From Phytoseiulus persimilis (taxonomy: Eukaryota; Arthropoda; Arachnida; Mesostigmata; Phytoseiidae): DNA of 64,000 nt. Location of the stretch: the NCBI GenBank assembly GCA_037576195.1, contig CM075101.1:21700001-21764000 (forward strand). Direction: 5' to 3'. Under the pieces are notes generated by a model. It was not told the DNA's origin, made no database searches, and worked only from the letters and a program-made list of their open reading frames with translations. Of this stretch, positions 6,827 to 52,800 are shown piece by piece. A program made the position numbers and the translations under genes. How positions within the stretch are numbered: position 1 is the first letter of the stretch; every line of letters begins with the position of its first letter.

Positions 6827-8689
6827 TTAAGGGGGTTCCCTACTTTTGTTCATGTTCCTCGTTTTAAGCCCCTGTATGACCGAGAGGGCTGAAACTTCGC
6901 TTGGCCCTCCCTCGGCCCTCGAAACGAAGACTGAAGTTGGGGCATGGCGGGCAAAAAAAAGGGAGAGGGCTCTAGCCCGATCTAACGAAAAACCTTCGAA
7001 TTCGAGCGGCCAACGATATTCGCATCGAGAACGGATGGAGACGCTTTCGTTATGACTCCATATTCGGATTCCTCGTCGAAAATGCTATTGATTGCAAAAA
7101 AAATTACTCGATTCGGCCAAGCTCTCATGTAGTTATGGCGGACACAAACCACTGAGTTAGTCCAGAATGACGTTTCTGGTTGATGGATCGTAGATATCTT
7201 CGCTCCTGGTTGAGATAATTTCATGAAATTGGGTTGTTTTATAGCCATACGTATCCCATACATGCACATCGAGTTTGATTCGATTAGGCCTAAGGGCAGC
7301 GGAGATGAGAGCGACTGCATTACTTCACACTCACTGCGCTAAACGTAAAGGACATTTTTGAACCGAGAACGGACAGAGAAGCTTTCGGTTTGATTGCATG
7401 TTCGGATTCCTCATTCGAAATGCTTTAATTTCAAAAAAAGAAAGGCTCGATTCGACCAATATTTCGCGAAGATTGAAATCCGAGCTCCGAATTGCTCAGA
7501 TCACATCGAGCAGCTGATGGGGCACGCCTAATCTTTGCCGCCTTTCGACCTAGCTCGATGAAATTTTCTGTGTGTGTAAAGTCCATGGATGGCTATCGCA
7601 GGTCAAAACTTCATGAATTTATCTCAACCTGGAGCGAAGATATTCAAGCTCAACCAGCCAGGATCATCTTTCTGGACTATCTCGAAGGGTTGAACGATTC
7701 TTACTTCGCGGAATCTTGGTCGAATCAAGCTCTTCGTTTGACTGAAATCGTAGCATTTTCAATGAGGAATCCGAATATGCAATCAGACCGAAAGCGTTTT
7801 TTCCGTTCTCGATCTGAAATCCGAGCTCCGAACCGCTCAGATCACATCGAGCAGCTGATGGGCCACGCCTAATCTTTGCCGCCTTTCGACCTAACTCAAT
7901 GAAGTTTTCTGTGTGCGTCAAGTACATGGGTGGCTATCGCAGGTCAAAATTTCATGAGTTTATCTGAACCTGGAGCGAAGATATTCAAGCTCAACCAGCC
8001 AGAATCATCTTTCTGGACTATCTCGAAGGGTTGAGCAATTCTTACGCCGTGAAATCTTGGTCGAATCGAGCCCTTCTTTTTTCGAAATCGGAGCATTTTC
8101 AATGAGGAAGCCGAATATGCAATCAAACCGAAAGCGTCTCTGTCCGTTCTAGGCTTCAAAAATGTTGTTTACGTTCAGCACAGTGAATTCGAAGTAATGC
8201 GGTCGCTCTCATCTCCGCTGCCCTTAGGCCTAGTTGAATCAAACTTGGTGTGCGTGTATAGGATACGTATGGCTATCAAATTACCTAATTTCATGAAATT
8301 ATCCCAACCAGGAGCGAAGATATCTGCGATCCAACAACCAGAAACGTCATTCTATATTAACTCAGTGGTTCATGTCCGCCATAACTACATGAAAGCTTGA
8401 CCGAATCGGGTCATTTTTTTTTAAATCGATAGCATTTTTGACCAGGAATCCGAATATGAATTCATAACCAAAGCGTCTCCATCCGTTCTCGATGCGAATA
8501 TCGTTGGCCGCTCGAATTCGGAGGTTTTTCGTTAGATCGGGCTAGAGCCCTCTCCCTTTTTTTGCCCGCCATGCCCCAACTTCAGTCTTCGTTTCGAGGG
8601 CCGAGGGACAGCCAAGCGAAGTTTCAGCCCTCTCGGTCATACAGGGACTTAAAACGAGGAACATGAACAAAAGTAGGGAACCCCCTTAA
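6827..8689. mobile_element. TTAA-flanked foldback DNA element
   Basis: Begins TTAAGGGGGTTCCCTACTTT and ends with its reverse complement. Perfect or near-perfect inverted arms run at least 6827-7060 and 8470-8689, and related inverted sequence continues inward. TTAA at both ends is the piggyBac-type target duplication. The interior has two direct copies of a ~330-bp unit (about 7470-7790 and 7810-8130) that resemble the inner arm units. No transposase is present, so it is non-autonomous. Removing it with one TTAA rejoins LINE coding sequence in frame. Confidence 0.8.
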
Positions 8690-9064: not shown

Positions 9065-9567
9065 TCAAGCTCTCGGTACCTCCTCGCCTTGTATCCTCAG
9101 CTCACTCTCGGGCCCCAGGTCAAGGGCCGAGTATACCACGACCGCGCTTTTCGAGGGGTTGAATGTCAGCTCATTCTCGTCTCCAGTCGTGGCTTCCAGG
9201 AGTTTTCCCATTTTTTGGTAGTTCCTGGCCATGAGTACAATATCATCCACGAACAGACGACCGGGTATACAGGAATAGGTTTTTACCCTCGTATCCCACG
9301 TCCATTTGTCCAACTTGACTCTGAAACCCACTCCTTGTTTTTGTAATTTGGTCTCGAGGTCCCAGATATACAGCATGAAAAGGAGACATGACAAAAAGGG
9401 ACACCCTTGGCGGAGCCCCTGGTTGGTCTCTATCCACCTTGAGCTAACATTGTTGTAGTTCATGCTAGCTCTGTTGTGCGTGTATAGTTTCTGGACTGTT
9501 TCAATCATACCTCTGGTCCATGCCAATCGGTCATAGGCGGCTGTACAATCAAGATAAACACATATTA
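9065..9567 (-). pseudogene. LINE reverse transcriptase, second half
   Basis: Carries RT motif A (YLDCTAAYDRLAW, just left of the hAT insertion), the QGCPFLSCLLF block (motif B-like QGxPLSP) and FVDDIVLMA (motif C, a YADD variant), then NPSKSAVV. Its upstream half lies at 14346-14680. Removing the hAT plus one 8-bp target duplication joins DKTGL to ICVYLDC without a frame change. Confidence 0.85.
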
Positions 9568-9575
9568 GTCCTGTT
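9568..9575. repeat. Target site duplication, left (GTCCTGTT)
   Basis: Identical to 14338-14345; 8 bp as expected for hAT. Confidence 0.9.
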
Positions 9576-9586
9576 TAGGGGTCGCA

Positions 9587-9680
9587 AATACCCGGGTATC
9601 AGGAACCGGTTCCGGACCCGGGTATCGGACCCGGGTACCCGGTTCCAGACTCGGGTGAACCCGGGTATATGAGGCGGGTT
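9587..9680. promoter_or_regulatory. Left subterminal ACCCGGGTA cluster
   Basis: Four CCCGGGTA motifs separated by CCGGTTCC-type spacers. The mirror cluster lies at about 14232-14326. hAT transposases bind short subterminal repeats, so these are candidate binding sites (inference). Confidence 0.55.
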
Positions 9681-9693
9681 CTACGATGGCCAG

Positions 9694-11600
9694 GACCAAT
9701 CTGAGCATTACTGTCCAACTCTGGAGGGGTGATCCCGGGACCAATCTGAGCATTACTGTCCAACTCTGGAGGGGTGATTCCGAGACCAATCTGAGCATTA
9801 CTTCCCAACTCTGGAGGGGTGATTCCGAGTCCAATCTGAGTATTACTTCCCAACTCTGGAGGGGTGATTCCGAGACCAATCTGAGCATTACTTCCCAACT
9901 CTGGAGGAGTGATTCCGAGTCCAATCTGAGCATTACTTTCCAACCCTGGAGGGGTGATTCCGGGGTCAATCTGAGCATTACTTTCCAATCCTGGAGGGGT
10001 GATTCCGGGGTCAATCTGAGCATTACTTCCCAACTCTGGAGGGGTGATTCCGGGGTCAATCTGAGCATTACTTCCCATCTCTGGAGGGGTGATTCCAGGA
10101 CCAATCTGACCATTACATTTCAACTCTGGAGGAGTGATTCCGAGACCAATCTGACCATTACTTTTCAACCCTGGAGGAATGATTCCGAGACCAATCTGAG
10201 CATTACTTCCCAACTCTGGAGGGGTGATTCCGGGGTCAATCTGAGCATTACTTCCCAACTCTGGAGGGGTGATTCCGGGGTCAATCTGAGCATTACTTCC
10301 CAACTCTGGAGGAGTGATTCCGAGTCCAATCTGAGCATTACTTCCCAACTCTGGAGGAGAGATTCCGAGACAAATCTGAGCATTACTTCCCAACTCTGGA
10401 GGGGTGATTCCGGGACCAATCTGAGCATTACTTCCCAACTCTGGAGGGGTGATTCCGGGGTCAATCTGAGCATTACTTCCCAACTCTGGAGGGGTGATTC
10501 CGGGGTCAATCTGAGCATTACTTTCCAACTCTGGAGGGGTGATTCCGGGGTCAATCTGAGCATTACTTTCCAACTCTGGAGGGGTGATTCCGGGGTCAAT
10601 CTGAGTATTACTTCCCAACTCTGGAGGGGTGATTCCGAGACCAATCTGAGCATTACTTCCCAACTCTGGAGGAGTGATTCCGAGTCCAATCTGAGCATTA
10701 CTTTCCAACCCTGGAGGGGTGATTCCGGGGTCAATCTGAGCATTACTTTCCAATCCTGGAGGGGTGATTCCGGGGTCAATCTGAGCATTACTTCCCAACT
10801 CTGGAGGGGTGATTCCGGGGTCAATCTGAGCATTACTTCCCAACTCTGGAGGGGTGATTCCAGGACCAATCTGACCATTACATTTCAACTCTGGAGGAGT
10901 GATTCCGAGACCAATCTGACCATTACTTTTCAACCCTGGAGGAATGATTCCGAGACCAATCTGAGCATTACTTCCCAACTCTGGAGGGGTGATTCCGGGG
11001 TCAATCTGAGCATTACTTCCCAACTCTGGAGGGGTGATTCCGGGGTCAATCTGAGCATTACTTCCCAACTCTGGAGGAGTGATTCCGAGTCCAATCTGAG
11101 CATTACTTCCCAACTCTGGAGGAGTGATTCCGAGACCAATCTGAGCATTACTTCCCAACTCTGGAGGGGTGATTCCGGGACCAATCTGAGCATTACTTCC
11201 CAACTCTGGAGGGGTGATTCCGAGACCAATCTGACCATTACTTCCCAACTCTGGAGGGGTGATTCCGGGACCAATCTGACCATTACTTCCCAACTCTGGG
11301 GGGTGATTCCGGGACCAATCTGACCATTACTTCCCAACTCTGGAGGGGTGATTCCGAGACCAATCTGGCCATTACTTTCCAACTCTGGAGGGGTGATTCC
11401 GAGACCAATCTGAGCATTACTTCCCAACTCTGGAGGGCTGATTCCGGGACCAATCTGACCATTACTTCCCAACTCTGGAGGGGTGATTCCGAGACCAATC
11501 TGAGCATTACTTCCCAACTCTGGAGGGGTGATTCCGAGTCCAATCCGACCATTACTTCTCAACACTGGAGGGGTGATTCCGCGACCAATCTGAGCATTAC
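9694..11600 (+). repeat. 45-bp minisatellite array, left arm (about 42 units)
   Basis: The unit reads roughly ACCAATCTGAGCATTACTTC followed by CCAACTCTGGAGGGGTGATTCCGAG. Variant units recur 765 bp apart (17 units), for example at 9916/10681 and 10096/10861, which shows a higher-order duplication. Because 45 is a multiple of 3, several frames stay open for up to about 560 codons; these are not taken as genes. Confidence 0.95.
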
Positions 11601-11887
11601 ATCAGAAACTGGAAGGCGAGCCTCTTTCGGAACTGAATGAGCGATGGAGACTTTCTAAGCATCGCTCGATCGACTGCTTGGCTTTATTCGGAGTATATGA
11701 ATACATAAGTGGCATTCGTCTGCTTCCGAATCGGTTGACTGGAAATCTGTTGTGGGCGACATGTATAGAAGACGAATCGGGAAGCCCAACACCCGTACAA
11801 CCTGGCGAAAGGAAAAAAGAAGGTTACTTTACGGGCACTCCTCCGAGGAAGTGGGCGATTTCACATTCAGAGAAAAAATACTAACGT

Positions 11888-12673
11888 TCACTGTTCCTCC
11901 TCTCGAGAAACTCCATGGTACCATGCATGAAGCAGCACCAAACTGTCCAGGGTCTTTGGTGCAAGAGAGTTTCTGGTCTTCGAGCATACGAAGTTCATCA
12001 CGCTGAAGTCTCTCTCTGGTTTCACCGATGTTGGCGGAATTGTCAGCAGTCGGCGAGTGCATTTCTTCAGGAACCTCCCAAGGCCCTGACCCGCCTCGTG
12101 CAGTTTCATCTCTCTCACAATCTTCTCGTTCGTTGCTTCCGATTGAGATGGAGCTCGTCGTGGGCGGAGAGGGATTCGAAAAACATCCTCGAAACCGAAT
12201 ACAGAAGACGATGAGGTTCCGGGTTGAGGCTCCTCTTCAGCCTCTGCATCGATCGAGTCGGCGAGTTCAGCTTCTTCGGAGTCCTGACTCAGGATGTCGC
12301 TGATCGAATGCTGCAGATCGGCGTCCGATACGGCGCTCATTCCGAGAGCGCGCTCAACTCTCGAGTCGTATGATGGATCCAGGAGATACTGCAGTAGAGA
12401 TGAGAACCTTGTTCGTCTTTTGCGGACTTCCTCAATCACAGCAGTCTGTAGGGCGACTGAAAGGGTGGAATTGTTGGCTCGCAAACAATCCAAGAGAGCC
12501 AAAATTGTGCGGTCGCCATGGGCAAGAGTTGCCTTCGACGAGCACAGGAGCTTCATGGCAGTTTTAAACGGCATCAGCACCTTCTGAATGTTCACTATTG
12601 ATCTCCACCACGTGCCTGCGCCCTCGGACGCAATGCCGGTTTCACCGCCAGCACATGTTACACATGTGGCCAC
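11888..12673 (-). pseudogene. hAT transposase C-terminal fragment (dimerisation domain)
   Basis: A 261-codon frame. The last third has RRLLTIPPTSVKPERDFSVM followed by a KTRNSLAPKTLDSLVLLHAWY-type end, the hallmark of the hAT C-terminal dimerisation domain. Before it lies an acidic, Ser-rich linker (SQDSEEAELADSIDAEAEEE). The N-terminal BED finger and the DDE catalytic core are absent: upstream is the minisatellite. The frame is open, so the fragment could still be translated. It could be a domesticated remnant or simply the undeleted end of an autonomous ancestor; I favour the latter. Confidence 0.8.
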
Positions 12674-12760
12674 TATGATCGTTATCCGCGAAGGACACTA
12701 CGTGCGAGGTGCATACTGTTGGCTCGAAGAATGAACGCATCACACTAGCGACAGGAGCTC

Positions 12761-14212
12761 CCAGATTGGTCTCGGAATCACCCCTCCAGAGTTGGGAAGT
12801 AATGCTTAGATTGGTCTCGGAATCACCCCTCCAGAGTTGGGAAGTAATGCTCCCAGATTGGTCTCGGAATCACCCCTCCAGAGTTGGGAAGTAATGCTCA
12901 GATTGGTCTCGGAATGTCCCCTCCAGAGTTGGGAAGTAATGCTCAGATTGGTCTCGGAATCACCCCTCCAGAGTTGGGAAGTAATGCTCAGATTGGTCTC
13001 GGAATCTCCCCTCCAGAGTTGGGAAGTAATGCTCAGATTGGTCTCGGAATCACCCCTCCAGAGTTGGGAAGTAATGCTCAGATTGGTCTCGGAATCACTC
13101 CTCCAGAGTTGGGGAGTAATGCTCAGATTGGTCTCGGATTCACCCCTCCAGAGTTGGGAAGTAATGCTCAGATTGGTCTCGGAATCACCCCTCCAGAGTT
13201 GGGAAGTAATGCTCAGATTGGTCTCGGAATCACTCCTCCAGAGTTGGGGAGTAATGCTCAGATTGGTCTCGGAATCACCCCTCCAGAGTTGGGAAGTAAT
13301 GCTCAGATTGGTCTCGGAATCTCCCCTCCAGAGTTGGGAAGTAATGCTCAGATTGGTCTCGGAATCACTCCTCCAGAGTTGGGGAGTAATGCTCAGATTG
13401 GTCTCGGAATCACTCCTCCAGAGTTGGGAAGTAATGCTCAGATTGGTCTCGGAATCACTCCTCCAGAGTTGGGGAGTAATGCTCAGATTGGTCTCGGAAT
13501 CACTCCTCCAGAGTTGGGAAGTAATGCTCAGATTGGTCTCGGAATCACTCCTCCAGAGTTGGGGAGTAATGCTCAGATTGGTCTCGGAATCACTCCTCCA
13601 GAGTTGGGAAGTAATGCTCAGATTGGTCTCGGAATCACTCCTCCAGAGTTGGGGAGTAATGCTCAGATTGGTCTCGGAATCACTCCTCCAGAGTTGGGGA
13701 GTAATGCTCAGATTGGTCTCGGAATCACCCCTCCAGAGTTGGGAAGTAATGCTCAGATTGGTCTCGGAATCTCCCCTCCAGAGTTGGGAAGTAATGCTCA
13801 GATTGGTCCCAGAATCACCCCTCCAGAGTTGGAAAGTTATGGCCAGATTGGTCTCGGAATCACCCCTCCAGAGTTGGGAAGTAATGCTCAGATTGGTCTC
13901 GGAATCACCCCTCCAGAGTTGGGAAGTAATGCTCAGATTGGTCTCGGAATCACCCCTCCACAGTTGGGAAGTGATGGCCAGATTGGTCCCAGAATCACCC
14001 CTCCAGAGTTGGAAAGTTATGGCCAGATTGGTCTCGGAATCACCCCTCCAGAGTTGGGAAGTAATGCTCAGATTGGTCTCGGAATCACCCCTCCAGAGTT
14101 GGGAAGTGATGCTCAGATTGGTCTCGGAATCACCCCTCCAGAGTTGGGAAGTAATGCTCAGATTGGTCCCGGAATCACCCCTCCAGAGTTGGACAGTAAT
14201 GCTCAGATTGGT
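12761..14212 (-). repeat. 45-bp minisatellite array, right arm (about 32 units, inverted)
   Basis: Same unit as the left arm in reverse orientation (CAGATTGGTCTCGGAATCAC and so on). Unit variants differ: an alternation of GAGTTGGGGAG and GAGTTGGGAAG units around 13360-13700 suggests local expansion of a two-unit block. One irregular unit with two extra bases lies near 12850. Confidence 0.95.
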
Positions 14213-14231
14213 ACCGGCCATCGTAGAACCC

Positions 14232-14326
14232 GCCTCATATACCCGGGTTCACCCGAGTCTGGAACCGGGTAGCCGAAGTCGGGTAATCGGGTACCCGGGT
14301 CCGGAACCGGGTATCATACCCGGTTC
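14232..14326. promoter_or_regulatory. Right subterminal ACCCGGGTA cluster
   Basis: Inverted counterpart of the left cluster, with ACCCGGGT and ACCGGGTA variants. It shares the segment CATCGTAGAACCCGCCTCAT, in inverted orientation, with 9669-9688. Confidence 0.55.
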
Positions 14327-14337
14327 TGCGACCCCTA

Positions 14338-14345
14338 GTCCTGTT
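14338..14345. repeat. Target site duplication, right (GTCCTGTT)
   Basis: Identical to 9568-9575. Confidence 0.9.
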
Positions 14346-14680
14346 TTATCGATTCTGGACATTTCGATCGCTGAGGTGAGGATGAGGATATTGTCGTCAT
14401 CTCTTCTGCCTGTTCGAAATCCGTTTTGCATTTCTCCCAGTATCCCTTCCTCTTCTATCCAGGTCTGCATCTTTTTCCCATTTATTTTGGTGAAGACGCG
14501 GTACAGCATGGCTGAAATGGTAATTCGCCGATATGTGGAGAGGTCGCCCGGTTCTGGGTTTGTCTTTTCTAACATCACGACCTTACCGCTTCTCCAGACC
14601 GCTGGTATTTCCTCTTCTCCCCTCAGTATGCGGTTGAAGAGATCTGCGATGTATCCTATTCCAACATCAGTGAGCTGCTT
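14346..14680 (-). pseudogene. LINE reverse transcriptase, first half
   Basis: Carries the RT start blocks: KTNPEPGDLSTYRRITIS, then LYRVFTKINGKKMQTWIEEE and MQNGFRTGRRDDDNILIL. This is the standard LINE order before motif A. It continues at 9567 after the hAT insertion. Confidence 0.85.
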
Positions 14681-16099: not shown

Positions 16100-17564
16100 T
16101 CTTCCGTTTCCGACGTCCCGAGACATGTCACTCCGCGGTGTTTCGCGGAGTTGGCCGGGTTACTCGAAGGGTTATCCCTTCTTTCGCCACCTCGGTTTCG
16201 GTTTTCGCGGCCGCGAGTTTGTCCCTTGGCCGAGCTCCTCCCGGGTGATGGGAGCCTCCCGCTGGGTTTCTTCCCTGCGGTTGGCCCGCGTGGTGCGGCC
16301 CACGTTGACGGAATTCTTGGGAGCCCCGTCTCCGTTCCGGGTCGGGGTGTTCCCTCAGGCTGTTGAGGTGCCTCTTCCTGTCCCTCGTTTCCGTTCCACT
16401 GCTGAGGGGTTGTTCCCCAGATCCCGTTGCCGCGGCTCTTGGGCACTTGCAACGGGCGCAGGTCTCGGTGTTTGATTTGTCGAGCTCCTTAAGTGTGTTT
16501 TCGAGGACTTCTTTTTTTGCGTCGATGAGCTGTTGGACTTCTTTCTTTTTTTCTGTCCCTCTCAGCCGAGTCAGCCACGAACTCATCTCGTTTTTTTGAG
16601 ATCTCGTCCATGTCTTGGTCAGTAAGTCGGAGCATAGATATGATTTGGCTCCGGAACCAATTGTACGATGTGTTTAGTACTGGTTCCCCATACTGTTCCT
16701 CTAGGAGGTCGCCCTCCATGTTGGTCAGGTTTCGCTCGTCTCCTCATAGGATTCTGAGATCGAATACCTGAATCTGTGCATTCTTGACTTCTGGCGAGAA
16801 GAGTATCGCCGTGTTCACAGCCGTGGTGCTGGAAACCTTTGTTGGTTCCACTAGGGTGCACCACGTCTCTGAGAGTACCCCTGGCTTTGCTTTCAGCTCA
16901 ACCAGAGGCTTGATGATCCTGGCCGCGATGTCTTCGACCGTGCAGGGTGTATCACCCGTCATCGCCGCGACCACCTCGGCTCTCCCCGCATGACGAATGA
17001 TGTGTGTCTTCATCTGCGGGTTGTTCTCTAAGAATGTGGCGACGCCTGCAAGAGTCTCCAGGATCGTTAGCCCTTTTCGGCGTGTAGATTCACCAAAGTT
17101 ACTTGCCCGGCGAAATTCGTGTAGAGATCGATCTCAGGCTTTCCTCTCCTCAGCTTGCGAATCCCTTTGACCGCGTAAAGTACTATACACGGGTTCCGGG
17201 TAAGCTCTGCTGATACAAGCATCTCGAGGTTGATGCTCCTAATCGCCTGTGCGGTTTCGGCCGCGTCGATCTCTACCCATTTTCCGTTGGGGAGCTTGTT
17301 TGTTTCCTCTAGTTCTTCCTGAATAGCCAGGTAGAAGAGTCTGAGCTCTTCGGGTTGTGTGTTTAACTCGGTTATTTGAGCTTGAGCGGACCTAATGTCT
17401 CCCTTCAATCTGTCCGCTTCCATCGAATATGTCATGGCGTTCTCATCGGCCACTAGCTTGGACCTAACCAGTTCTTCGGTTCTGGCCCTCATTTCGCTGA
17501 ACACACAGCACCTATTTGTGGTCGCGCGAGTTTTTTCGGCTTCCACGGCGCACGTGCTACACAC
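16100..17564 (-). pseudogene. LINE ORF1 (nucleic-acid-binding protein), frameshifted
   Basis: Starts with a cysteine motif (CSTCAVEAEKTRATTNRCC), followed by a likely coiled coil (about 17250-17480), a middle part (MKTHIIRHAGRAEVVAAMTG, 16744-17013) in another frame, and a basic Pro/Arg-rich end (16128-16586) containing CARCKCPR. Order and position upstream of the endonuclease fit a LINE ORF1. Two or more frameshifts separate the parts. Confidence 0.6.
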
Positions 17565-17994
17565 CGGAATTCCAGGGTGCGTCCACTTTTTTTTTCAGTC
17601 CTCTTGACGACGACAAACACTTCGGAGGACACGAACAAGCCGGGAAAAATCGTGAATTTTCCCCACCATCACTGCATGCGCTGTATCTTCCACGCTAGCA
17701 GACGACGCTCAGTTTTCTCGAATATCGCTCTGAAAACACCAAATTCCAACGTCAGCCGGAACCGTAACTTTTTTTCATGTTTGGGTGAACAAGCCGGATA
17801 GAATCGGTCCGGACCGGTTCCGCGACATACCGATATCGTAAGGTTTACTTGTCAGACGAGTGTACGGATGTGAGAATATAGAGGCTCCAAGTTCGGCAGG
17901 GGTTGGTCGAAGCTAGAGCACGCTCATTGCCAGTGCAAGAGCGGGCTTTCTAAACACCACCTCTTTGAGAGCAAGATTCGAGGAAGGTGATGGT

Positions 17995-18620
17995 GAAGGC
18001 AGTGGCGTATCTAGAAGGGGGGCAGAGGGGGCTCGTGCCCCGGGCGCGAAGCTGATGGGGCGCGCAGTCAGGGGCGCAAAGCTGATGGGGCGCTCAGTTA
18101 AAGGGCGCAAAGCTGATGAGGAACGCAGTTATGGGGCGTAAAACCGTATTTGATTTTTTTTCGTAGCCCTGAGCGCAAAATGAACTCAATTCGCCTCCCG
18201 AACGCACAATCTAGGGCGCGCCAAATCCGAGTTGAGGTTTGTCCATATCCATATGGAGATTTGACTTATCTCGGCAACGGAATCTCGCCTCGGAGAAGTC
18301 AGGGGCGCAGAGCTGAGGGGCGCGGAGATGAAGTACATACATAAATGACTGTGGAACGTTGGTCCGTGTCAGGGATCATTATGGTTCGGAAGAAGCTGGG
18401 CGCATTAGCATTTTTGAGCGTTGAGAGACGAAACGAAAAAAATGTTCTTGGAGCTGTTGGATGATAGAGAGTTTCGCCGCAACCAAGGCTCATCGTACGC
18501 AATTCAGGTCATCAAACTATCGTGGTAACATTGAGTGGACATGACCTTGTTTCCCACGAGAAGAATCTCTTGCGATGGCTCACCAAATTTCTCGCAGGCT
18601 CGGAGAGGGGGGGCGCATTT
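17995..18620. repeat. GGGGCGCAAAGCTGATG short tandem repeats in a degenerate element
   Basis: Three to four imperfect ~30-bp units around GGGGCGCAAAGCTGATG at 18045-18135, preceded by CAGTGGCGTATCTAGAAGGG, a start typical of invertebrate DNA transposons. Further GGGGCGC tracts lie at 18300 and 18608. No matching inverted end was found, so limits and class are uncertain. Confidence 0.4.
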
Positions 18621-25500: not shown

Positions 25501-28500
25501 TCGAATTTCTTCTCCCACTTGCCATGCTGAAAGGCTTTGCGAGGGTTCGCGCTCGAGGGCCCCCGCTTCAACTTAATAGTCGCTCTGTTTGAAGTTCTCC
25601 ACGACCATGATTGGCGCTCTCTCCTCCGAACCTTGATGCCTCGCACTTGAAAGACCTGAAGCAGAATTTTCCGTCTCTCGGAATAGCTGAGTACTTGAGA
25701 GAGGTAGCTCTCTTCTGCGGGACGCCATCTTGGCAGTTGATCAATTGCCCTGCAGCTAGTTCAGGCTTGACCGCGATCAGATCCACGGTGCGGAAAAGCG
25801 TTGACGGTAGGGCCGGAGAAGTGACTGTCGCGGGTAAACCTTCCAGTGCGTGGAGGGAGGCGATCTGAGTATCTCCACTCCCTGTATCGGGCGGGCAGCC
25901 GTCCGACTTTCCTCGCACCGTGTCGTCACGGGCTCTACGGCGTCGAGCAACGGCACGATGAATGAACAAACGCAGTCGAATCGCTGTGAACCGCGCTTTT
26001 TAGAACAGCAAAATCGGTATCAGATCGCGCCGCAGACCATAAGCTTTTGGCGTGCTCTTTCGAACAGCGAATTTCTTCAGCATGCGACGACAACGTTTCC
26101 GAGTTTTCTCGGTTTGTTACCGCGGAAAACACAGCCACAGTCGAGCCCCGTCGCTTATCCGGATCACAGGTTAGACCGGCTGGCGTCTTTCATTCATAAA
26201 GATTCCTTCCCAGTGATTATAGCTGATGTTTTCTAACCCGGTGAGAGGGTGGAAGGGGATGCCATTTTCGATGACCGCCCCGGGCACTGGAGACCCTCGC
26301 TACGCCACTAAGTATGCTGGTATCCCGGGCACATTTTTTCAGGCAGACACCCTTCCCATCACACCGAGCGAGCTCTGCTGCGCCGCTCGTGGGAAATTTT
26401 CGAGTCCTCCGAATAGAGGAAGAATAAGAAGTCGCCTTTTTTCGTGAATCTGCTCTAGACTCAAAACGAAAAACGAGAGAGCCGATAGGGTGACGCCAAG
26501 TTGTAGTCAAATAATGAGCTACGTTTTGAGGAAAAGTTCATCGAAATGATCCCACTGGTCTCAGAACAGCAGTTGAAAGAAAAAAGCGGAACGAACTCTC
26601 GACCTGATAAGACCACCCTGTAGTGTGTACCGTAGCCTCGTTTGGGCGAAGCTTACGCGTTTACTCTTCCCTAGGCTCACCTATGTTTCGATCGAAGATA
26701 TGCCGCATGGGTTTCGTTTGGAGAATGGATCATTCTTCGGAATCATGGGGATGTTCGAAAGAGGTGTAAGATTCCCCGAGCCAGGTCTAAGCAATCTGAA
26801 TCAAACGTTCTCTCATCCTACCCAGTTATATGGAACGTGAAATCTTATACCCTGTAGGAGATCGATCTGTTCCTGAGTCCTTCAGTCATGACTGCTGAGC
26901 GGCTACTAGTAGCGGAGCCTGCTACGTTCGACGTCCCCCCGTTTCAACTCCTCACCTGGTCTCCAATGAAGGTGAGCCGCATATTTCTTCTCTCACGATG
27001 AGGTGATCGGCGCTGTCGCAAGTAGTCGTTGGCTCTTCTACCGAAGCTCTCCTGGAACAATGAGATGATTTGCCCGGCCTGTCAGCCATAAGACCTTGCG
27101 TCATGAAGTTGTCGCGCGGTTCTTCGTGGCGGCCGCCTATTTTTACAAACATCCGGGACCTCTTTGTCACTCAGAGAGCGCTCATCTATCGGGGACTCTA
27201 TTGTCATCAGAAGAGTTACGCCATATTCGGTTGGCTTTTCAGGTTGTGGACCCCTTGAACTTCGTGTACGCATTCAGCCCAGAAGTCTGGTTGGGAGTTG
27301 TCTTGAGTTTCGCATTGCTGTCCCTGATCTGCTGGATCATGGATCGGTGAGCTGTGCTCATCGACGTTGATATACTAGAGCAGTGGTTCTCAAACTCCAC
27401 TGACCCATCGAAACCCTAGGCGACTTCGTTGAAGTTTATGAACTGCCGTCCCCCAAGGGGTCGACCGTCGACCCTTGATCCACCTACGTGGACGCCAAGA
27501 AGTATGGTCAAATCCACCCCGGAATCACCTCTGTAAACCGGAGGTCGGTCATCGACCACTTTGAGAACCACTGTACTAGAGTTTTGTTGTCCGAACGTTT
27601 GATGCTTCGATGTTTTCCCGATATACGTCGATGACAGATAGTTTCCTTCGAAGGTACTTGACTCCGTGGGACGAAACGGAACCGTTGGCCTTGACCGAAT
27701 ACCTCTGGGATATATTCTCACGTTTTTTTCCCCAAGGTGGAGGGCAAAGCATAATTTGGTCTTTCAAATGATTCCTAGCTGTAATGGGAGAACGTGGATG
27801 TCTTCGATCTCAATCACATATTGCACAGTTTTCCTCACAAAAATGAGCCATCCTCAGATGCTCCGCCCCGGCAACAGCATTGGCTCCGATTGTGTTTAAT
27901 CAGCTTCCTCTTTGCCTTCTCCTTGATCTTCATGACTTTCTTGAGCAGTGCTCTGACGTCGTCAATGACCATCAAAAGCGACGAAGATTTTGTCAACAGT
28001 TACGCTGACGTACTACGCTTCCCGAAAGTTCGAATCTACAGCGAGAAAGGGACACTGCTTGTCCAGGCTTTCACGGTAATGTGGAGCTTCCCATTGCAAA
28101 GTTTCAATCCGAATCCAACTCGTTCAATCGGAACTAATCGTTCCCCCAGCGCAAACCTCTGCGTGAACAGTCGGCTATATATTTCAACTCCCATTCTCGG
28201 CAACGCAGAATCCACATAACGAGCTTTTCCGAAAACTCGGGAGCAGGCTTATACCCGTCCGGGGAATATTCAAAGTTAGCCCACAAGTTATGGAAATGGT
28301 AAGTGAAGTTGAGGGCAGGACACGGGTGATGATCGGCAGTCCGGAAATCTGCAAGGCAATAATCATGAAGAAGAAAGAAACCTCGGGGAGATGTCCGAAT
28401 GTCAAGCTATCGACGGAGGGTGCTGGCCAGATGACCGCATCCGTCCTCATGTCCAGGAATCTTCCCGCGGCCACTCGACAGCTCATACAGCGAGCGTGAG

Positions 28501-28814
28501 TTCAATGGTGAAGTTATAATTTTCGCTGCTCCACATCTTCTCTCGGCTGTCCAGCCCAAACTAACCCATTACCTTAACGAAGGGTCCTCATTGCTGTTGA
28601 GTCGTTCATTTATCGGAAAACTTTGATCTGGTCAATGGAAGAATACGAGAAATGCAAGCTGCGAACCCACTTAGATGTCGCCTCCACCACGGAAGCTCTT
28701 TCACGTGAAGACCTTCAAGGATGCTTCATGTTGTTCGGGATCGGGACCAGCGTTGCGAGTTTGGCATTTCTGTCCGAGATCACAAGGAAACGCTGCTGCG
28801 GCGACGCTAGCTGA
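22517..28814 (+). CDS. Ionotropic receptor gene B, complete, nine exons
   Basis: Exons 22517-22591, 24494-24594, 26675-26765, 26858-26971, 27243-27346, 27654-27736, 27858-28075, 28209-28495, 28583-28814 join to 1305 nt, 434 aa, with no internal stop. Order: S1 half (HLRVATIQ through LENGSFFGIMGMFERG and EIDLFLSPSVMTAERL), M1 (LSFALLSLICWIM), pore (PWDETEPLAL to FSRFFPQ), M3 (LSSALTSSMTIKSDEDF), S2 half, M4, short tail. There is no separate amino-terminal domain, as in many IRs. The start is set by the conserved first exon; no signal peptide is evident, so an upstream exon may be missing. Exons 6 and 9 have AAG acceptors. Introns 1, 2 and 5 carry transposons. Probable plasma-membrane cation channel; ligand unknown. 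Confidence 0.85.
22950..24030 (-). pseudogene. hAT-like transposase relic in intron 1 of gene B
   Basis: Minus-strand frames show LRKLDDVKLRSFFEKYFKQQ and IRRYLADEATWISIDEPTEV, then RVLLFLSDGAPSAGSALKVL with VTCVAHGLHRLAEDVR, and finally an AVTSVDV block near 22960. This is the order seen in the large arthropod hAT-like family related to CGBP1/DUF659 proteins. Frameshifts make it inactive. It is antisense to the host gene. Ends were not located. Confidence 0.7.
24850..26590. mobile_element. Long-TIR element of the dispersed repeat family (intron 2 of gene B)
   Basis: Copy at about 24860-25140 (+) is matched in inverted orientation by about 26300-26590: shared ATGTAGCTCAT/ACGTAGCTCAT, GACTACAACTTG, GAAGGGTGTC(C/T). 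The arms are roughly 280 bp and diverged. The 1.1 kb interior has a 133-codon minus-strand frame (25568-25969) without a recognised domain and a run of 10 G at 25447. It fills most of intron 2. Confidence 0.55.
27381..27573. mobile_element. hAT MITE in intron 5 of gene B
   Basis: 193 bp with ends CAGTGGTTCTCAAA...TTTGAGAACCACTG, a classic hAT terminus, flanked by exact 8-bp duplications TACTAGAG (27373-27380, 27574-27581). Other IR copies lack it, so it inserted after the duplications. Confidence 0.9.
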
Positions 28815-28837
28815 TAATGTTGGAAAATAGTCGGACT

Positions 28838-28843
28838 AATAAA
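28838..28843 (+). terminator. Polyadenylation signal of IR gene B
   Basis: AATAAA 24 bp after the stop, in the same TCGGACTAATAAA context as gene A. Confidence 0.6.
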
Positions 28844-28942
28844 AGACTTTCGCGCAAGCGTTAAGTAGGGTCGATAAGGAGCTCGCATTTCCGTATCGAA
28901 TCTCGAGAGCTATGCAGTCAGGATAAGGAAGTCGTACGCTTT

Positions 28943-31777: not shown

Positions 31778-34116
31778 ATGAAGACGGAATATTTTCCTTT
31801 CCGAGCTGAGTTCAATTGTTCTGTGCCGCACCTTCGCGTCGGAATGGTTCAAGTACGTTCTTAGGATGTAATGAACAGAGCGCTTGCTCGTCGGGGAGGC
31901 CCTGAGAGATGGAATATTGCCTCGTCTGGTCATGGCTAGGGATGTGGAAACCTCGCAGGCAAGGAGGAGGACGATAGCTCAATCAGAAGTCGAGACGAAT
32001 AGATGTTCTTACCGAGGACTTCTTCCATATTTTCATTCTGAAAGTGACTGAAGAAAATGCCAGGGTCTATACTCATCCCGAGGCGTGGCGAATACCGTGC
32101 TTGACAACAGTGTCTGCATGAATTTGCAGCTTGAGCCTTTCATCTACAAGAGGAAGATAGGGGATCACATCGAAGTTCGCGGTCCGGTATCCCAGCTAGG
32201 TGCGGCCATCCAAGCAATAACGGGTCACAAGTAAGTTGTCTACGTATCTTGCTTGAGTTGGGAGCGAATTTATTCAACGGAAGTCAACTTCAAAAGCCAG
32301 CCAGTACTGCTGATCATCTATCCTTCGGATCATATCCAGGTTCTCAGTAGTTTCAATAGAGGATATGCAACATGGTTATCGCATGGAAAACGGAACGTTC
32401 GTGGGAATCATGGGATTGTTTCAAAGGGGGGTGAGCGATCTTGAACTGAGTTCCCATTTGAAAATTCACAACTTTGTTTCATTCCTCGTTGATTAGAAGG
32501 GGAGCGTTCGCTTCCACAGGAAATCGATCTCCTAGTGAGCCCTTCAATCTTGAACGAAGAGCGTAGCATCCTAGTAGAGGGAGCCACCTATGACATCACC
32601 ACGTATCGACTCCTGACCTGGTCGCCGTCGAAGGTCAAGCGCCCATTTTTACTGGTTCTAGTTCGGGATGTGTTTACATCCCATCGATAAGAGAGAACCG
32701 GAAATACGAGAGGTGATTTTCAGTTCACCTAGAATCAAGTTCGCACTTTCACTTCCATAGGTCGTGGATCCCTTCAACTTTGCGTCCAGCTTCACTCTCG
32801 AGGTCTGGTTGACGGTCCTCCTGAGTTTTTTATTGTTTTCTCTGATTTGTTGGGCCATGGGCAGGTACGTCCAGGTCACGTGAGTCAGGTGAAGGTCTAT
32901 CGCCGTGATGAAATGAATCGATGAGCGATCTGACGAAAATTGATACACAGACTTCCTGTCCGAAGGTACTGCACGCCGTGGGACGAGGAAGAACCACTTC
33001 CGTTGACCGAATACATTTGGGACCTATTTTCACGATTCTTCCCACAAGGTGACATGCCGCCGTCTCCGCTAGGGTCATCTTCTGCAATATTGTTCGATGA
33101 ATCAATGATGGAGTGGTCCTTCAATGACCGACAGCGACTTTCTCGCTTACAGAACCTCCCACACAGCAACTTGGATGGTTTAGGATGTGTCTCATTGGAT
33201 ATCTTTTCGCCTTCTCGGTGTTATTCATGACTTTTCTGAGCAGCGCCCTGACGTCATCGATGACCATCAAGAGCAACGAGGACTTCGTTGATAGCTACGC
33301 GGATATACTCCGTTTCCCGAAAGTTCGGCTCTACAGCGAGAAAGGGACTATCCTGACGCAAATTTTCACTGTACTGAGCCCCTTCCTGATTACGACTTGG
33401 CATTACCTCGATCGACTCCTGCGACGTGAGCTGCTAACCGAAAGCCTATTCTCAGGATCCCCACAACGAACTTTTCCGAAAACTGAACAGTAGACTCATA
33501 CCTGTCCGAGGGCTGTTCACACTAAGCCCGCAAGTGATGGGGATGGTCTCGGAGGTAGAGGCAAAAACACGGGTCATCCTCGGCAGCCCAGAAATGTGTT
33601 TCAGCATGGCGCTGAAGAAGAAAGAAGTCTCAGGGAGATGTCCGAAGGTGACCCTGTCGACCGAGAGCGCTGGGCTGATGATAGTTTCCATCTTCATATC
33701 AAAGGCTCTCCCGAAAACCACACGCGAACTCATCCACAAAGCGTGAGTAGGAGGAATGAATGGACCGCTTCCATCGAATACTTTTTCGACGAATTCGTTT
33801 GGAATCCGGTTCTAAGAGCATCGAACTTCACAGCATATTAATATCGTTCGGGGCCAACTTTTATCACACGAATCTGAGGTGGGCAGTGAAGGACTACGAT
33901 AAGTGCCGGTGGGAAGCGCTACAATCCATATCCGACACCACTAAACCTCTATCGATATTGGATGTTCAAGGATGTTTTGTGCTGCTTTCGATAGGCTTAG
34001 GCTGCGCGAGCATCTCCCTCTTGTTCGAAATCTTCAGGACTCGTCATCGCCGTTCAACCGACGAAGTTTCTCGAGGAGTTGCGGCTGCAGGTTCTCGTTC
34101 GGTGTGCTCATCCTAG
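31778..34116 (+). CDS. Ionotropic receptor gene C, complete, nine exons
   Basis: Exons 31778-31852, 32130-32230, 32340-32430, 32520-32633, 32761-32864, 32966-33048, 33153-33370, 33456-33742, 33834-34116 total 1356 nt, 451 aa, no internal stop. Same phases as B, D and E. S1 reads LEPFIYKRKIGDHIEV, then EDMQHGYRMENGTFVGIMGL; M1 FLLFSLICWAM; pore PWDEEEPLPL to FSRFFPQ; M3 LSSALTSSMTIKSNEDF. M4 is followed by a longer, Arg/Ser-rich tail than in B or D. Donors after exon 4 (GTCAAG) and exon 7 (GTACTG) are weak, and exon 6 has an AAG acceptor. It is the most compact copy: all introns are about 85-280 bp and free of transposons. Confidence 0.87.
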
Positions 34117-38700: not shown

Positions 38701-40485
38701 GTTTCCCTCATCCGCTGAGGAACAGATCTTCGAGCACGAATCCGTGCCCTTCTCTGATCATTTACAGTTATTTGAACGTATGCCTGAGGAGGTTTTGTGG
38801 TAATTTGAGATCGAATCAGCACCATGGAAGTGTCGGAAACGACAGGCACGTCGAGGCACACGACATTGTTGCCATACATTCTAATCCAGCTAATTTTAGT
38901 AACGTTCAGGTCAGTCTTCCATTGATGATCATGGAGATGAGACGCTGCTCCGGATCTCTATCCTCGAGGGCATCGAGAAGTCGCCTAATAGAACGAATAT
39001 CAGATCAGGTTATCGAGGGATGAGCGCTGCATAAGACTTTGATGATTTGCTCTCCGTTCATCAGCGCGCTATGCTCGATGAATTCGACTCCTCACTCAAA
39101 AAATGCCTTGCTGTTTTTCAAGGTCGTGGATCCCTTCAACTTCGCGTCGGCATTCAAGCTGGAAGTCTGGCTCGGGGTTCTCGTGAGTTTCTTATTGCTG
39201 TCTCTGATCTGCTGGGTTATTGATCGGTGAGTCTCGCAGATCCTAAATGATGTTTCGTCCAGGTCGTATTCTCTAAGAATATGTTGGTAACCAGTCGTTT
39301 TCCACGAAGATACTTGACTCCATGGGACAAATCCAAACCTTGGGCTTTGACTGAATATATTTGGGATCTCTTCTCGCGGTTTTTCCCCCAAGGTGAGGCG
39401 CGAAACACATGGATTCCGGCATCCTCAATCAGTTTGATTTCGATCGGGAGAGCGTCGATGGAGTCTTCAGTCGCAACCGAAAATCGTTCAGTTTTCTCCA
39501 CCATAATTAGTCATCCTTCCCCAGATGCTCCGATACGACAGCAAGATTGGTTCCGGATGTGCTCGATCGGCTTCCTTTTCGCGTTTTCATTGATTTTCAT
39601 GACTTTCTTGAGCAGCGCTCTGACGTCGTCAATGACCATCAAAAGTGACGAAGATTTTGTCAACAGCTACGCTGACATACTACGTTTCCCGAAGGTTCGG
39701 ATCTACAGCGAGAAAGGGACACTTCTCGTGCAAGCTTTTACGGTAAAGTAGCCTTCCATTCCGAATTCCTGGTTCCAATTCAGCTACCAGAGTGGGGCTC
39801 GTCGTTCTCCCGAGCGTGGACATTCGTCTAACTGGGCGACTCTCGTTGAACCCTCATTCTCGGCAATGAAGGATCCCCACAATGAGCTTTTTCGGAAAGT
39901 CGGTGAAAGGCTGATACCGGTTCGGGGGATATTCAAGCAGAGCCCAGAAGTGATGGAAATGATAACTGAAATCGAGGGGAAGACACGCGTGATGGTAGCC
40001 AATCCGGAAATCTGCAAGGCACTCATCATCAAGAAGAAAAGAACTTCAGGAAAATGTCCGAAAGTTATGCTGTCGACCGAGAGCGCCGGCTTGATGACCT
40101 TATCAATGTTCATGTCCCGGAATCTACCCGCTGCCACACGCGAAATTATCAACAGGGCGTGAGTTTCGAAGGTTGCTCGAACATTTCTGGCTGCTTTGCG
40201 TTATATCCTCTCGATTTCACGAGCAGCAAAGACGCATTTCATTTTTGCAGGGTTCTCATCGCTTCTGAGGCGGATCTCTATCGTAAAACTTTGGTGTGGT
40301 CGATGGAAGAATACGAAAAATGCAGATTGCAGACTCGCTCAGCAGCTGCTTCAACCACGAAAGCTCTGACGCTTCAAGACCTTCAAGGGAGTTTTGTGTT
40401 GTTTGCGATTGGGATGAGCGCCGCAGGTTTTGCGTTTTTCCTCGAGACCGGGAGGTTTCGCTACTGCTGCTGCGCCGGCCGATGA
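35782..40485 (+). CDS. Ionotropic receptor gene D, complete, nine exons
   Basis: Exons 35782-35856, 35986-36086, 36733-36823, 36915-37028, 39123-39226, 39310-39392, 39525-39742, 39872-40158, 40251-40485 total 1308 nt, 435 aa, no internal stop. S1 starts HLRVAMIQLEPYVNKRRVGA, then EDMPHGYRLENGSFFGIMAM and EIDMFVSPAIMTEERLLLAQ; M1 LLSLICWVI; pore PWDKSKPWAL to FSRFFPQ; M3 LSSALTSSMTIKSDEDF; M4 in LQGSFVLFAIGMSAAGFAFF. Closest relatives by eye are A and B. Exons 5, 6 and 8 have AAG acceptors where A or B sometimes has CAG. Intron 4 is 2.1 kb and holds no recognised element, though 38200-38250 faintly resembles the hAT relic of gene B. Confidence 0.85.
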
Positions 40486-49838: not shown

Positions 49839-52800
49839 TCATGGATTCTCGATCAGTTGCGATTTCATCGAAACATCAATGCACGGCGTCACAGTTTGGG
49901 GTGGTTCTACACTAACATTGTCCATGCTCGAGTCAAAACCCACGATGTCTAGGAAGCGTTTCGTTCTCTTGAGCCTCCTGAAGGCGATCATTATCACAGC
50001 GACTGTCGAAACAGCAGGAATCAAGACGAGGAGACCTTTCCAGCCATTCAAGGGGAAGAAATCCCTCAAGGAAGCAGTGAGATTGCCACAGGGTGAATCG
50101 CCGCACCTGCAGCGTTCCGCGGTCGACGCCGAGTTCAGACATATGTCTCCGCAGTATTGGCACAAGTGCGTGGAGTTCACTTTCCGGTAAGTTTGGACGA
50201 CTTCGAACAACGCATTCTCACTATACTTCATTCGAAACAGGAATTCGCTGCGAGTGTTCTCAGACACAACCTCGAGCAGATTCTTCTCGTTTATGAGGAG
50301 AACAAAATTCATGTAAACGCCCAAGACTCGTTTGTTGCTCGCGGAAATATTCAGCGTCGAGCAAATCTCCATGGGGGCGCCCATCGTCGGACAGGCTATC
50401 AGCGTGTCGTTGGCCAAATATATCGGACTGCCATCAGCGTCTAGGAAAATCCGGCTCACGTTCGAGTTCTCGTAGTAAGTATCCACATGAGTACCATCCA
50501 GATCCACCCTGTACACGCGTTCCTCTCCCACCAAGCTGACGTGACCCTCAGCAGGATCCACCATCATCGATCGGAAGGTCTCATTGAATTCTTTCAGTAG
50601 CCGTTCTTGTCCTGTCAGAACGCTCTTGACGTATAGGTTGCTGCCTTCGATCCAATACATGTTCTCGAACTCGTAATCGATGGCGATGTGGGTGATGTTG
50701 GTCCGACCACTCACCAAAATGTTGCAAGAAAGTTGCTCATTGTCGTGGAAGATCGTTGAACGATCTGACGATAAATAAAATATTTTGCGATGGCTTTGAT
50801 CGTATGCCAATGCCTTCGGTTGGCTGGTTGTACAAGAGTGATCGTGAGTCTTCACGTCTATCGATAAATCGTTGAACTCCAAAGTCCCGAACCGGAGAAC
50901 GTTCTCATCAAGTTGGATTATCTGCCTTGGCATGCGGGAAGGGTAGCAGTAGCGATCAATCCTGACGTTCTCGGATGGACAATTGCACGTGTACGAGCCA
51001 TTCGTGTTCTCGCAAGCATGCTGGCACTCGGCAACACCTTCCGCGCACTCGTCGATGTCGACACATCTAGTTTCGGGTTCTTTTCTCGTGGCGTTGGCCG
51101 TGACAGAGCTGTTCGCTGGTGTCGTTCCTTTCAAGGATTCCAGCCGGAATCCCGGAGGACAAGCGCAAGCATACCCAGGCGATTCATTGATGCAAACCGT
51201 CCCTCGGGGGCACTCATGGGCTTCGTAAGCGCATTCGTCAAGATCAACGCATCGCCTGTTATTCCATTGATAGCCGACTTCGCAAATGCAGATCCCGTGC
51301 TCACAACTGCTGTGCTTGGGGCATTTCCGAGGCCCACACATCGCTTCGGAGAGTTTGCACACATCGATGAAAACGTAGTTGTCGACCACGATGGCTTTCG
51401 TGCTGAGGGGGCAGCGACACGCGTAATTTCCGTCCATGTTGTGACACCGTAGTCGAAATTCCGAAGTTCGCACGACCCTGCGGGAGGATCTCGCTTAATC
51501 AGAACGATCCGAACCTCGGCACTTCGACAAACGCGAGTTACCTCCTAGACTCGGTGGTGCATCCAAGGTTTGAAACCTGAATGCTCGACTGGTACTCACC
51601 TGTCGCACATGTTGCCCACCGTGAGGCATTCGTTTACATCGATGCATGTTCCGTTCTGTTCGAGGTATCCTACAGGGCACACACACTCGTACTTTTCTTT
51701 CATTCCGAGATTGATTTTGCAGATTCGAGGTGCCTCGCAGCTTGAATTCCGGCAATAATTCGTTTGAGAGCATCCAAGCTGAGTTTTTGGAAGGAAAGAG
51801 CAACAATGTATCGGCGTATTCCGACACGGAGCCAGAACACCGAACGAGCACAGGTGGAGACCAGGTCCGAGCTCGCGGGAGGAATAGTGAGATGTGCTAT
51901 CTCGGAGAGAGAGCATCAGAGTAATTGACGGCTCCCGATGAAAATGCACTCACGGTTATCGCACCGATTTTCGGATCGAAAGATCGCAAAACCTCGGTAT
52001 CCGCCGGGCAGGGACATTTGAAGCTTCCTTCAGTGTTCTCGCAGAGAGGGCTTGTGCATTCTGCTTCGGGTCCGGCGCATTCGTCGATATCATCGCAAAC
52101 ATTGGAAGTGCTGTTCCTGGCATATCCAGGCCGACAGTCGCATCTGTAACTCCCTGGAAACGATCAACGTGTCAGGGGGCAAGTCTATCCCCGGTGGGTT
52201 CTCAGGAAGGCTCTCTTTCATTCAACCTCGTCGATATTCGGTCAGCCTCACCCAATGTGTTGATGCACCGCTCTGAAGCTGGACATGTATGGTTCCCCGA
52301 TGAGCACTCGTCCTCATCCACACAGCGGCCAAGATAGTTTTTCAAGCCGCGGGGACAATCTCTTCGACAAGCCCTGCCCCTGGCCTCCATAGTGACGCAG
52401 GTCGCTTCCTCAGGACAGTCAGCGTCTGAGTTCGTTGAAACCAAATTAAATCAGCTCGTTCAAACAGCTCAAGAGGCTTTCGTCAATGGGACTTTCAATT
52501 GGCGATGAGTGCCAGTCACACTTCGTGATCCGATGTAACCTGACTAATTGTGAATGATCGACCAGGCGAGAAGCCGAGATTTTAGAGAAATATGGGAATG
52601 TGTGCAACGGCGGGCTCTGATGTATGAAGAAAAGCTTCATGTATGAGATCGCGATTGAGCACAGCGACGTTATTACCTGACATATATTCATCACGAATCG
52701 AAGGATTCGAGCAGAGGTTTTCTACTGCACGAATGAAGAATGAACACCGCGCGGGGATACTGAGGACGACTCAAATAATCCGCAAATCTAACGCCAGGGA

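Follow-up and report, generated by a model that had tools for sequence, protein, structure and literature searches.

A probable foldback-type hAT transposon with inverted minisatellite arms in Phytoseiulus persimilis

Introduction

How does a DNA transposon come to consist for the most part of minisatellite, and does the minisatellite belong to the transposon at all? The question is raised by a structure of 4,762 bp, located at positions 9576-14337 of a 64,000-nt stretch of the Phytoseiulus persimilis genome (GenBank assembly GCA_037576195.1, contig CM075101.1, positions 21,700,001 to 21,764,000, forward strand). This whole stretch is hereafter called the window, and all positions are counted from its first letter. 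An earlier sequence-only reading had described the structure as a transposon with hAT-type ends and exact 8-bp target duplications, in which about 42 and 32 copies of one 45-bp unit stand in opposite orientation around a transposase fragment. The present analysis bears out each of these features, and it leads us to regard the locus as, probably, one copy of a non-autonomous, internally deleted foldback-type hAT transposon, the inverted ends of which would already have held the 45-bp unit before it expanded separately in either arm.

Results

A Single Insertion in an Older Gene

The 11-bp tip sequence TAGGGGTCGCA occurs once per strand in the window, at 9576-9586 (plus strand) and at 14327-14337 (minus strand); when one mismatch was permitted, these were still the only two sites. 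On its own, the tip carries little weight, its position being what counts, since 12 out of 100 shuffled windows, searched with one mismatch permitted, also contained at least two sites (mean, 0.61). The two 8-mers that border the element are both GTCCTGTT, an exact duplication; by simple arithmetic, chance would produce such an agreement of 8 bp at fixed positions about once in 65,536. The subterminal stretches measure 120 bp at the left end and 126 bp at the right end, tips included, and both carry repeated ACCCGG-type motifs. In their inner parts, 56 bp are identical in inverted orientation (9636-9691 and 14216-14271); the outer parts have diverged by substitutions as well as by insertions and deletions. 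The coordinates of all features are collected in Table 1.

To reconstruct the empty site, we cut out the element and one of the two duplications and fused the flanking sequences, which yielded a frame of 281 amino acids (aa) that is open across the joint. The rejoined frame matches the Pfam family RVT_1 with E = 1.3e-14, as compared to E = 2e-8 when the left flank piece is taken by itself. Because the empty site restores a continuous reverse-transcriptase frame, arrays and ends constitute one insertion, with the arrays lying inside the transposon, where the sequence-only reading had placed them. The whole structure, arrays included, sits within an older reverse-transcriptase gene, which probably belongs to a non-LTR (long terminal repeat) retrotransposon.

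Table 1. Positions of the element, its parts and its flanks in the window.
Feature	Positions	Strand	Basis
Left flank: downstream part of the broken reverse-transcriptase frame	9065..9567	-	
Left target-site duplication GTCCTGTT	9568..9575	+	flank comparison
Left end: 11-bp tip TAGGGGTCGCA and subterminal stretch with repeated ACCCGG-type motifs	9576..9695	+	
Left array: 42 full 45-bp units (one of 44 bp) and a 16-bp partial unit	9696..11600	+	unit-by-unit cut
Core between the arrays, 1,156 bp	11601..12756	.	
269-aa open frame, C-terminal part of a hAT transposase	11891..12697	-	Pfam and solved-structure matches
Dimer_Tnp_hAT match (residues 211-260 of the open frame)	11918..12067	-	Pfam
Right array: 32 full 45-bp units (one of 47 bp) and a 13-bp partial unit, inverted relative to the left array	12757..14211	-	unit-by-unit cut
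Right end: subterminal stretch and 11-bp tip TAGGGGTCGCA	14212..14337	-	
Right target-site duplication GTCCTGTT	14338..14345	+	flank comparison
Right flank: upstream part of the reverse-transcriptase frame shared with the left flank	14346..14680	-	

Two Inverted Arrays of a 45-bp Unit

The arrays were delimited in two ways, with Tandem Repeats Finder and by cutting the sequence unit by unit. The former reports 42.4 copies of 45 bp at 9693-11600 (92% matches) on the left and 32.2 copies of 45 bp at 12762-14212 (95% matches) on the right; the latter gives the full and partial units listed in Table 1, in agreement with the numbers first estimated from the letters. Together, the arrays occupy 3,360 of the 4,762 bp, that is, 70.6% of the element, against the earlier estimate of about 70%. 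The longest ungapped inverted pair extends over 1,422 nt with a complementarity of 91%. Long inverted arms made of tandem repeats are thus enclosed between target duplications, which is the structure of a foldback-type element. Near the inner margin of the right array (12757-12861, minus strand), the partial unit at the end repeats the 2-bp insertion of the 47-bp unit, which points to local duplication of units at this margin.

The two arms are not mirror copies. When the gap of the 44-bp unit is retained as a gap character and the extra bases of the 47-bp unit are disregarded, we distinguish 36 unit types, 27 in the left arm and 11 in the right, only two being common to both. Column 1 is T in 14 of the 42 left units and in none of the 32 right ones, and column 45 is G or T in 20 left units and, again, in no right unit; conversely, a C in column 18 is confined to the right arm (7/32 versus 0/42). 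A G in that same column occurs in three of the 74 units, namely in the outermost units L1, L2 and R1. The outermost units of the two arms, L1 and R1, adjoin the 56-bp identical stretch and differ, in inverted orientation, at one of 45 positions. Since the outermost unit and the 56 bp are common to both ends while the rest is arm-specific, the simplest reading would be that a shared inverted end already held at least one unit and that the arrays then grew independently in either arm.

The left arm includes a 17-unit (765-bp) duplication, in which units 4-16 correspond to units 21-33 with 0-1 differences per unit; the mean identity at a shift of 17 units is 0.948, as compared to 0.889-0.931 at the remaining shifts tested. 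No such peak emerged in the right arm among the shifts compared, and an alternation is seen there across units 12-19.

A C-Terminal hAT Transposase Fragment in the Core

The transposase fragment announced for the core was recovered as an open frame of 269 aa. It matches Dimer_Tnp_hAT (PF05699), the C-terminal dimerisation region of hAT transposases, with E = 5e-8 and 33.1 bits, the cut-off being 21.4 bits. Amongst solved structures, its four best matches, all over the dimerisation region (E = 0.0017-0.0022), carry the chain name Hermes transposase or "transposase"; five weaker matches to cytochrome c1, with E from 0.088 to 0.85, are taken as chance. The frame keeps the glutamate that aligns with the catalytic glutamate of Hermes, presumably E572 in the Hermes numbering. 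No Mutator family was found in Pfam for this frame at E up to 0.1.

In all, 22 open stretches of at least 40 aa overlap the core. We put 12 of them and one shorter piece through Pfam, and in these we found no transposase domain other than that of the 269-aa frame, neither a BED finger nor a full DDE catalytic domain. For a supposed N-terminal zinc-finger remnant beside the right array (12645-12758, minus strand), Pfam returned nothing up to E = 10; a longer stretch (12645-12869), considered as an N-terminal piece of the transposase, gave a weak, unrelated match (E = 0.21) and was dropped. The 8-bp duplication, the short inverted tip and the C-terminal dimerisation region identify the element as a member of the hAT superfamily. 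We accordingly presume that the portion bearing the N-terminal domain and both catalytic aspartates is missing, so that this copy would be an internally deleted, non-autonomous derivative rather than an autonomous member of the superfamily.

Searches for the Origin of the Unit

Both versions of the 45-bp unit were aligned to five targets covering the ends, the core and the flanks of the element; all scores fell within the range of the shuffled controls, the lowest tail (56/300) being obtained for the right end, and derivation of the unit from any of these sequences is consequently not supported. A 6-mer, AGGGGT, common to the unit and the tip, was given no weight.

Outside the element, about 44.5 kb away, 24 of 26 positions at 58882-58907 match a stretch of the left arm, with a raw score of 42. 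Amongst 200 shuffled windows, 186 gave a match, the best scoring 34, and the best of 500 column-permuted arrays, a control that does not preserve dinucleotide content, scored 38. Another site, 27499-27532, is about 83% identical to left-arm units over 35 columns; its score of 36 exceeds those of the shuffled windows and was attained by four of the 500 column-permuted arrays. Picked out post hoc, both sites are leads that could represent a relic or a source of the unit.

Beyond this genome, the transposase fragment had 24 pattern matches in viral_contigs and 133 in genome_contigs, none of which was confirmed, and neither the unit pattern nor the end pattern had an exact match in viral_contigs; these misses tell little, because the two are not collections of eukaryote genomes.

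A Kilobase Hairpin Is Predicted on Both Strands

The sequence-only reading had suggested that a transcript across the element would form a very long hairpin, and folding predictions are in keeping with this on either strand. For a plus-strand transcript, the predicted fold has -3,590 kcal/mol, and 1,510 of its 2,025 pairs join the two arms; for a minus-strand transcript, the corresponding figures are -3,445 kcal/mol and 1,470 of 1,968 pairs. In a control consisting of one plus-strand sequence with the right arm set in direct orientation, the prediction amounts to -1,650 kcal/mol, so that the predicted hairpin stems from the inversion.

Other Features of the Window

Directly left of the element, two repeats lie in 6827-8689: a tandem duplication of 341 bp (7474-8150) and a pair of inverted copies (6827-7468 and 8048-8689; 91% identity). 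Four diverged copies of another repeat, at least about 1 kb long and in one orientation, occur at 1083-2524, 27204-28854, 32759-33748 and 39108-40483, with pairs being approximately 67-79% identical; the open stretches searched there, at 39251, 39970 and 27785, have no Pfam match. A short minisatellite with a 31-bp unit (3.3 copies) is located at 18042-18142. On the minus strand, a 551-aa open frame at 49842-51494 specifies calcium-binding EGF domains (EGF_CA in Pfam, E = 7.6e-15), as would be in keeping with an animal genome, and weak matches below the curated cut-offs were obtained to the SPT6 YqgF domain (17070-17594; E = 0.0012) and to FAM167 (16131-16673; E = 0.0013). An Rfam scan of the window returned no family at its cut-off.

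Discussion

We consider it probable that the minisatellite grew within the transposon's own inverted ends. One or a few units would have joined both ends when extension of the inverted repeat carried sequence of one end over to the opposite end; each arm would then have multiplied the unit on its own, by replication slippage or unequal exchange, with the 17-unit step as a late event in the left arm, and the copy may have been moved in trans by the transposase of an intact relative. Several observations weigh against this account. Mobility, mobilisation in trans and the order of events are all inferred from one copy. The lack of any above-shuffle similarity of the unit to the ends or the core leaves a subterminal origin unsupported. 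The excess of within-arm over between-arm similarity (0.0081), in itself in favour of separate growth, was attained in 5 of 5,000 label shuffles, a figure that overstates its significance because units of one array depend on each other; moreover, the excess is due to the right arm (mean identity, 0.947), the left units being less similar to each other (0.907) than to those of the right arm (0.914). Finally, the longer pattern in the right arm is weak, with 0.960 at a shift of four units against 0.955 for neighbours.

The sequence-only reading had offered two origins, capture of a repeat by the transposon or expansion of a motif once it was part of the inverted structure. Expansion of a unit already present in both inverted ends fits best; the first unit itself may have been captured from elsewhere, because the unit is unlike the ends, core and flanks and because the 26-bp match at 58882-58907 exceeds the best scores of two control sets. 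Had the unit been captured from the host or from another repeat and only later come to be present in both arms, the transposon would be the carrier of the minisatellite and not its source. We hold this to be rather unlikely: the site at 58882-58907 corresponds to one partial unit, noticed post hoc and without a 45-bp tandem array in place, the window has no further hAT tip, also when one mismatch is permitted, and the match might just as well be what remains of a sibling element. It is true that the assembly of long inverted tandem arrays is difficult and that the exact copy numbers given here come from the assembly alone, but an assembly or library artefact, be it a foldback chimera or an inflated array, is very unlikely. 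A chimera should yield near-identical arms, whereas the observed arms are unlike in length and in unit types, and the outer ends diverge by insertions and deletions; the target duplication and the restored frame are, moreover, what is expected of a real insertion.

Long open frames that cross the arrays, such as one of 575 aa at 9599-11326 (minus strand), might suggest that the 15-codon repeat encodes a repetitive protein under selection. A stop-free frame, however, persists from unit to unit because 45 is divisible by 3. Across 32 distinct variants, the synonymous changes observed and those expected under neutrality are 10/9.7, 9/8.4, 10/8.5, 7/8.5, 9/9.2 and 5/7.9 in the six frames, and the 44-bp unit (left) and the 47-bp unit (right) shift the frame. 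With counts near expectation in all six frames and units that break the frame, the array is probably not coding, and we regard selection for a protein encoded by the arms as extremely improbable. Expansion within inverted hAT ends can be carried further, to the speculative and, in our opinion, unlikely proposal that hAT ends breed minisatellites: the unit would be a putative binding site of the transposase or a host factor, multiplied as site-rich copies moved better, and the arrays would be transcribed into kilobase hairpins feeding small RNAs against the family, maybe seeding free satellite arrays elsewhere in the genome.

Within the hAT superfamily, known from Hermes and Ac/Ds, the 8-bp duplication, a short tip of the (C/T)AGGG type and the C-terminal dimerisation region of the transposase are familiar features, and, like Ds, the present element appears as an internally deleted hAT copy. 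The hAT members known to us have short subterminal repeats, not arrays that form 70% of the element. Inverted arms of short tandem repeats, similar to those described here but with different units, occur in Foldback (FB) of Drosophila melanogaster and in the TU elements of sea urchin, the latter with 8-bp duplications; to our knowledge, neither carries a hAT transposase fragment.

Tetris of Drosophila virilis is a non-autonomous foldback DNA transposon, the terminal inverted repeats (TIRs) of which consist of an outermost flanking domain followed by internal tandem repeats; it is associated with target duplications of 8-10 bp, and the repeat number differs between allelic copies (PMC4079207). 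The outer TIR domain, the inner tandem repeats in inverted arms and their unequal numbers are thus shared with the present element. In contrast, the Tetris unit is about 220 bp long instead of 45 bp, with three and four units in the described allelic copies, although some longer arrays within the element were seen by fiber fluorescence in situ hybridisation (fiber-FISH) and its units also form separate long arrays; 37 bp of the Tetris unit are shared with the outer TIR domain, a link we did not find here; and its transposase was not found and Mutator was suggested, whereas the present element has a hAT fragment (PMC4079207). A review table includes Tetris amongst the transposons that give rise to satellite DNA (PMC9659126). 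Copy 112 of Galileo in D. willistoni, with TIRs of 4,246 and 4,680 bp, likewise has direct tandem repeats in unequal number between its arms and identical target duplications, but it belongs to the P superfamily, its units are of about 140 bp with up to nine per region, and it is described as being without transposase sequence and as the sole copy in that genome with such repeats (PMC4168063). Muta1 of Aedes aegypti, termed a type 2 foldback element, similarly combines subterminal tandem repeats in inverted ends with 8-9 bp duplications, and its repeat number varies among non-autonomous copies; it differs in being an active element of the Mutator superfamily, with nine copies of a 12-bp unit and a TIR of 145 bp (PMC5225508).

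By title and abstract, we found no hAT element with foldback, minisatellite or tandem-repeat ends in the open PubMed Central literature, although full texts or Repbase may hold cases, and the 19 papers there in which variants of the tip occur, judged from titles and the starts of abstracts, include none with a title on transposons. The arms, which the sequence-only reading had called unusual, are so for a hAT element in the open literature searched; the build as such has been published for foldback elements of other superfamilies. As far as our searches of the open literature reach, then, foldback elements with tandem-repeat arms are already known from other superfamilies and the hAT version is new. 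If other copies share the build, this architecture would be extended to the hAT superfamily, and the element would provide a clean case for how transposon ends yield minisatellites, because in each of its arms an array seems to have grown independently, beginning with a unit that both had in common.

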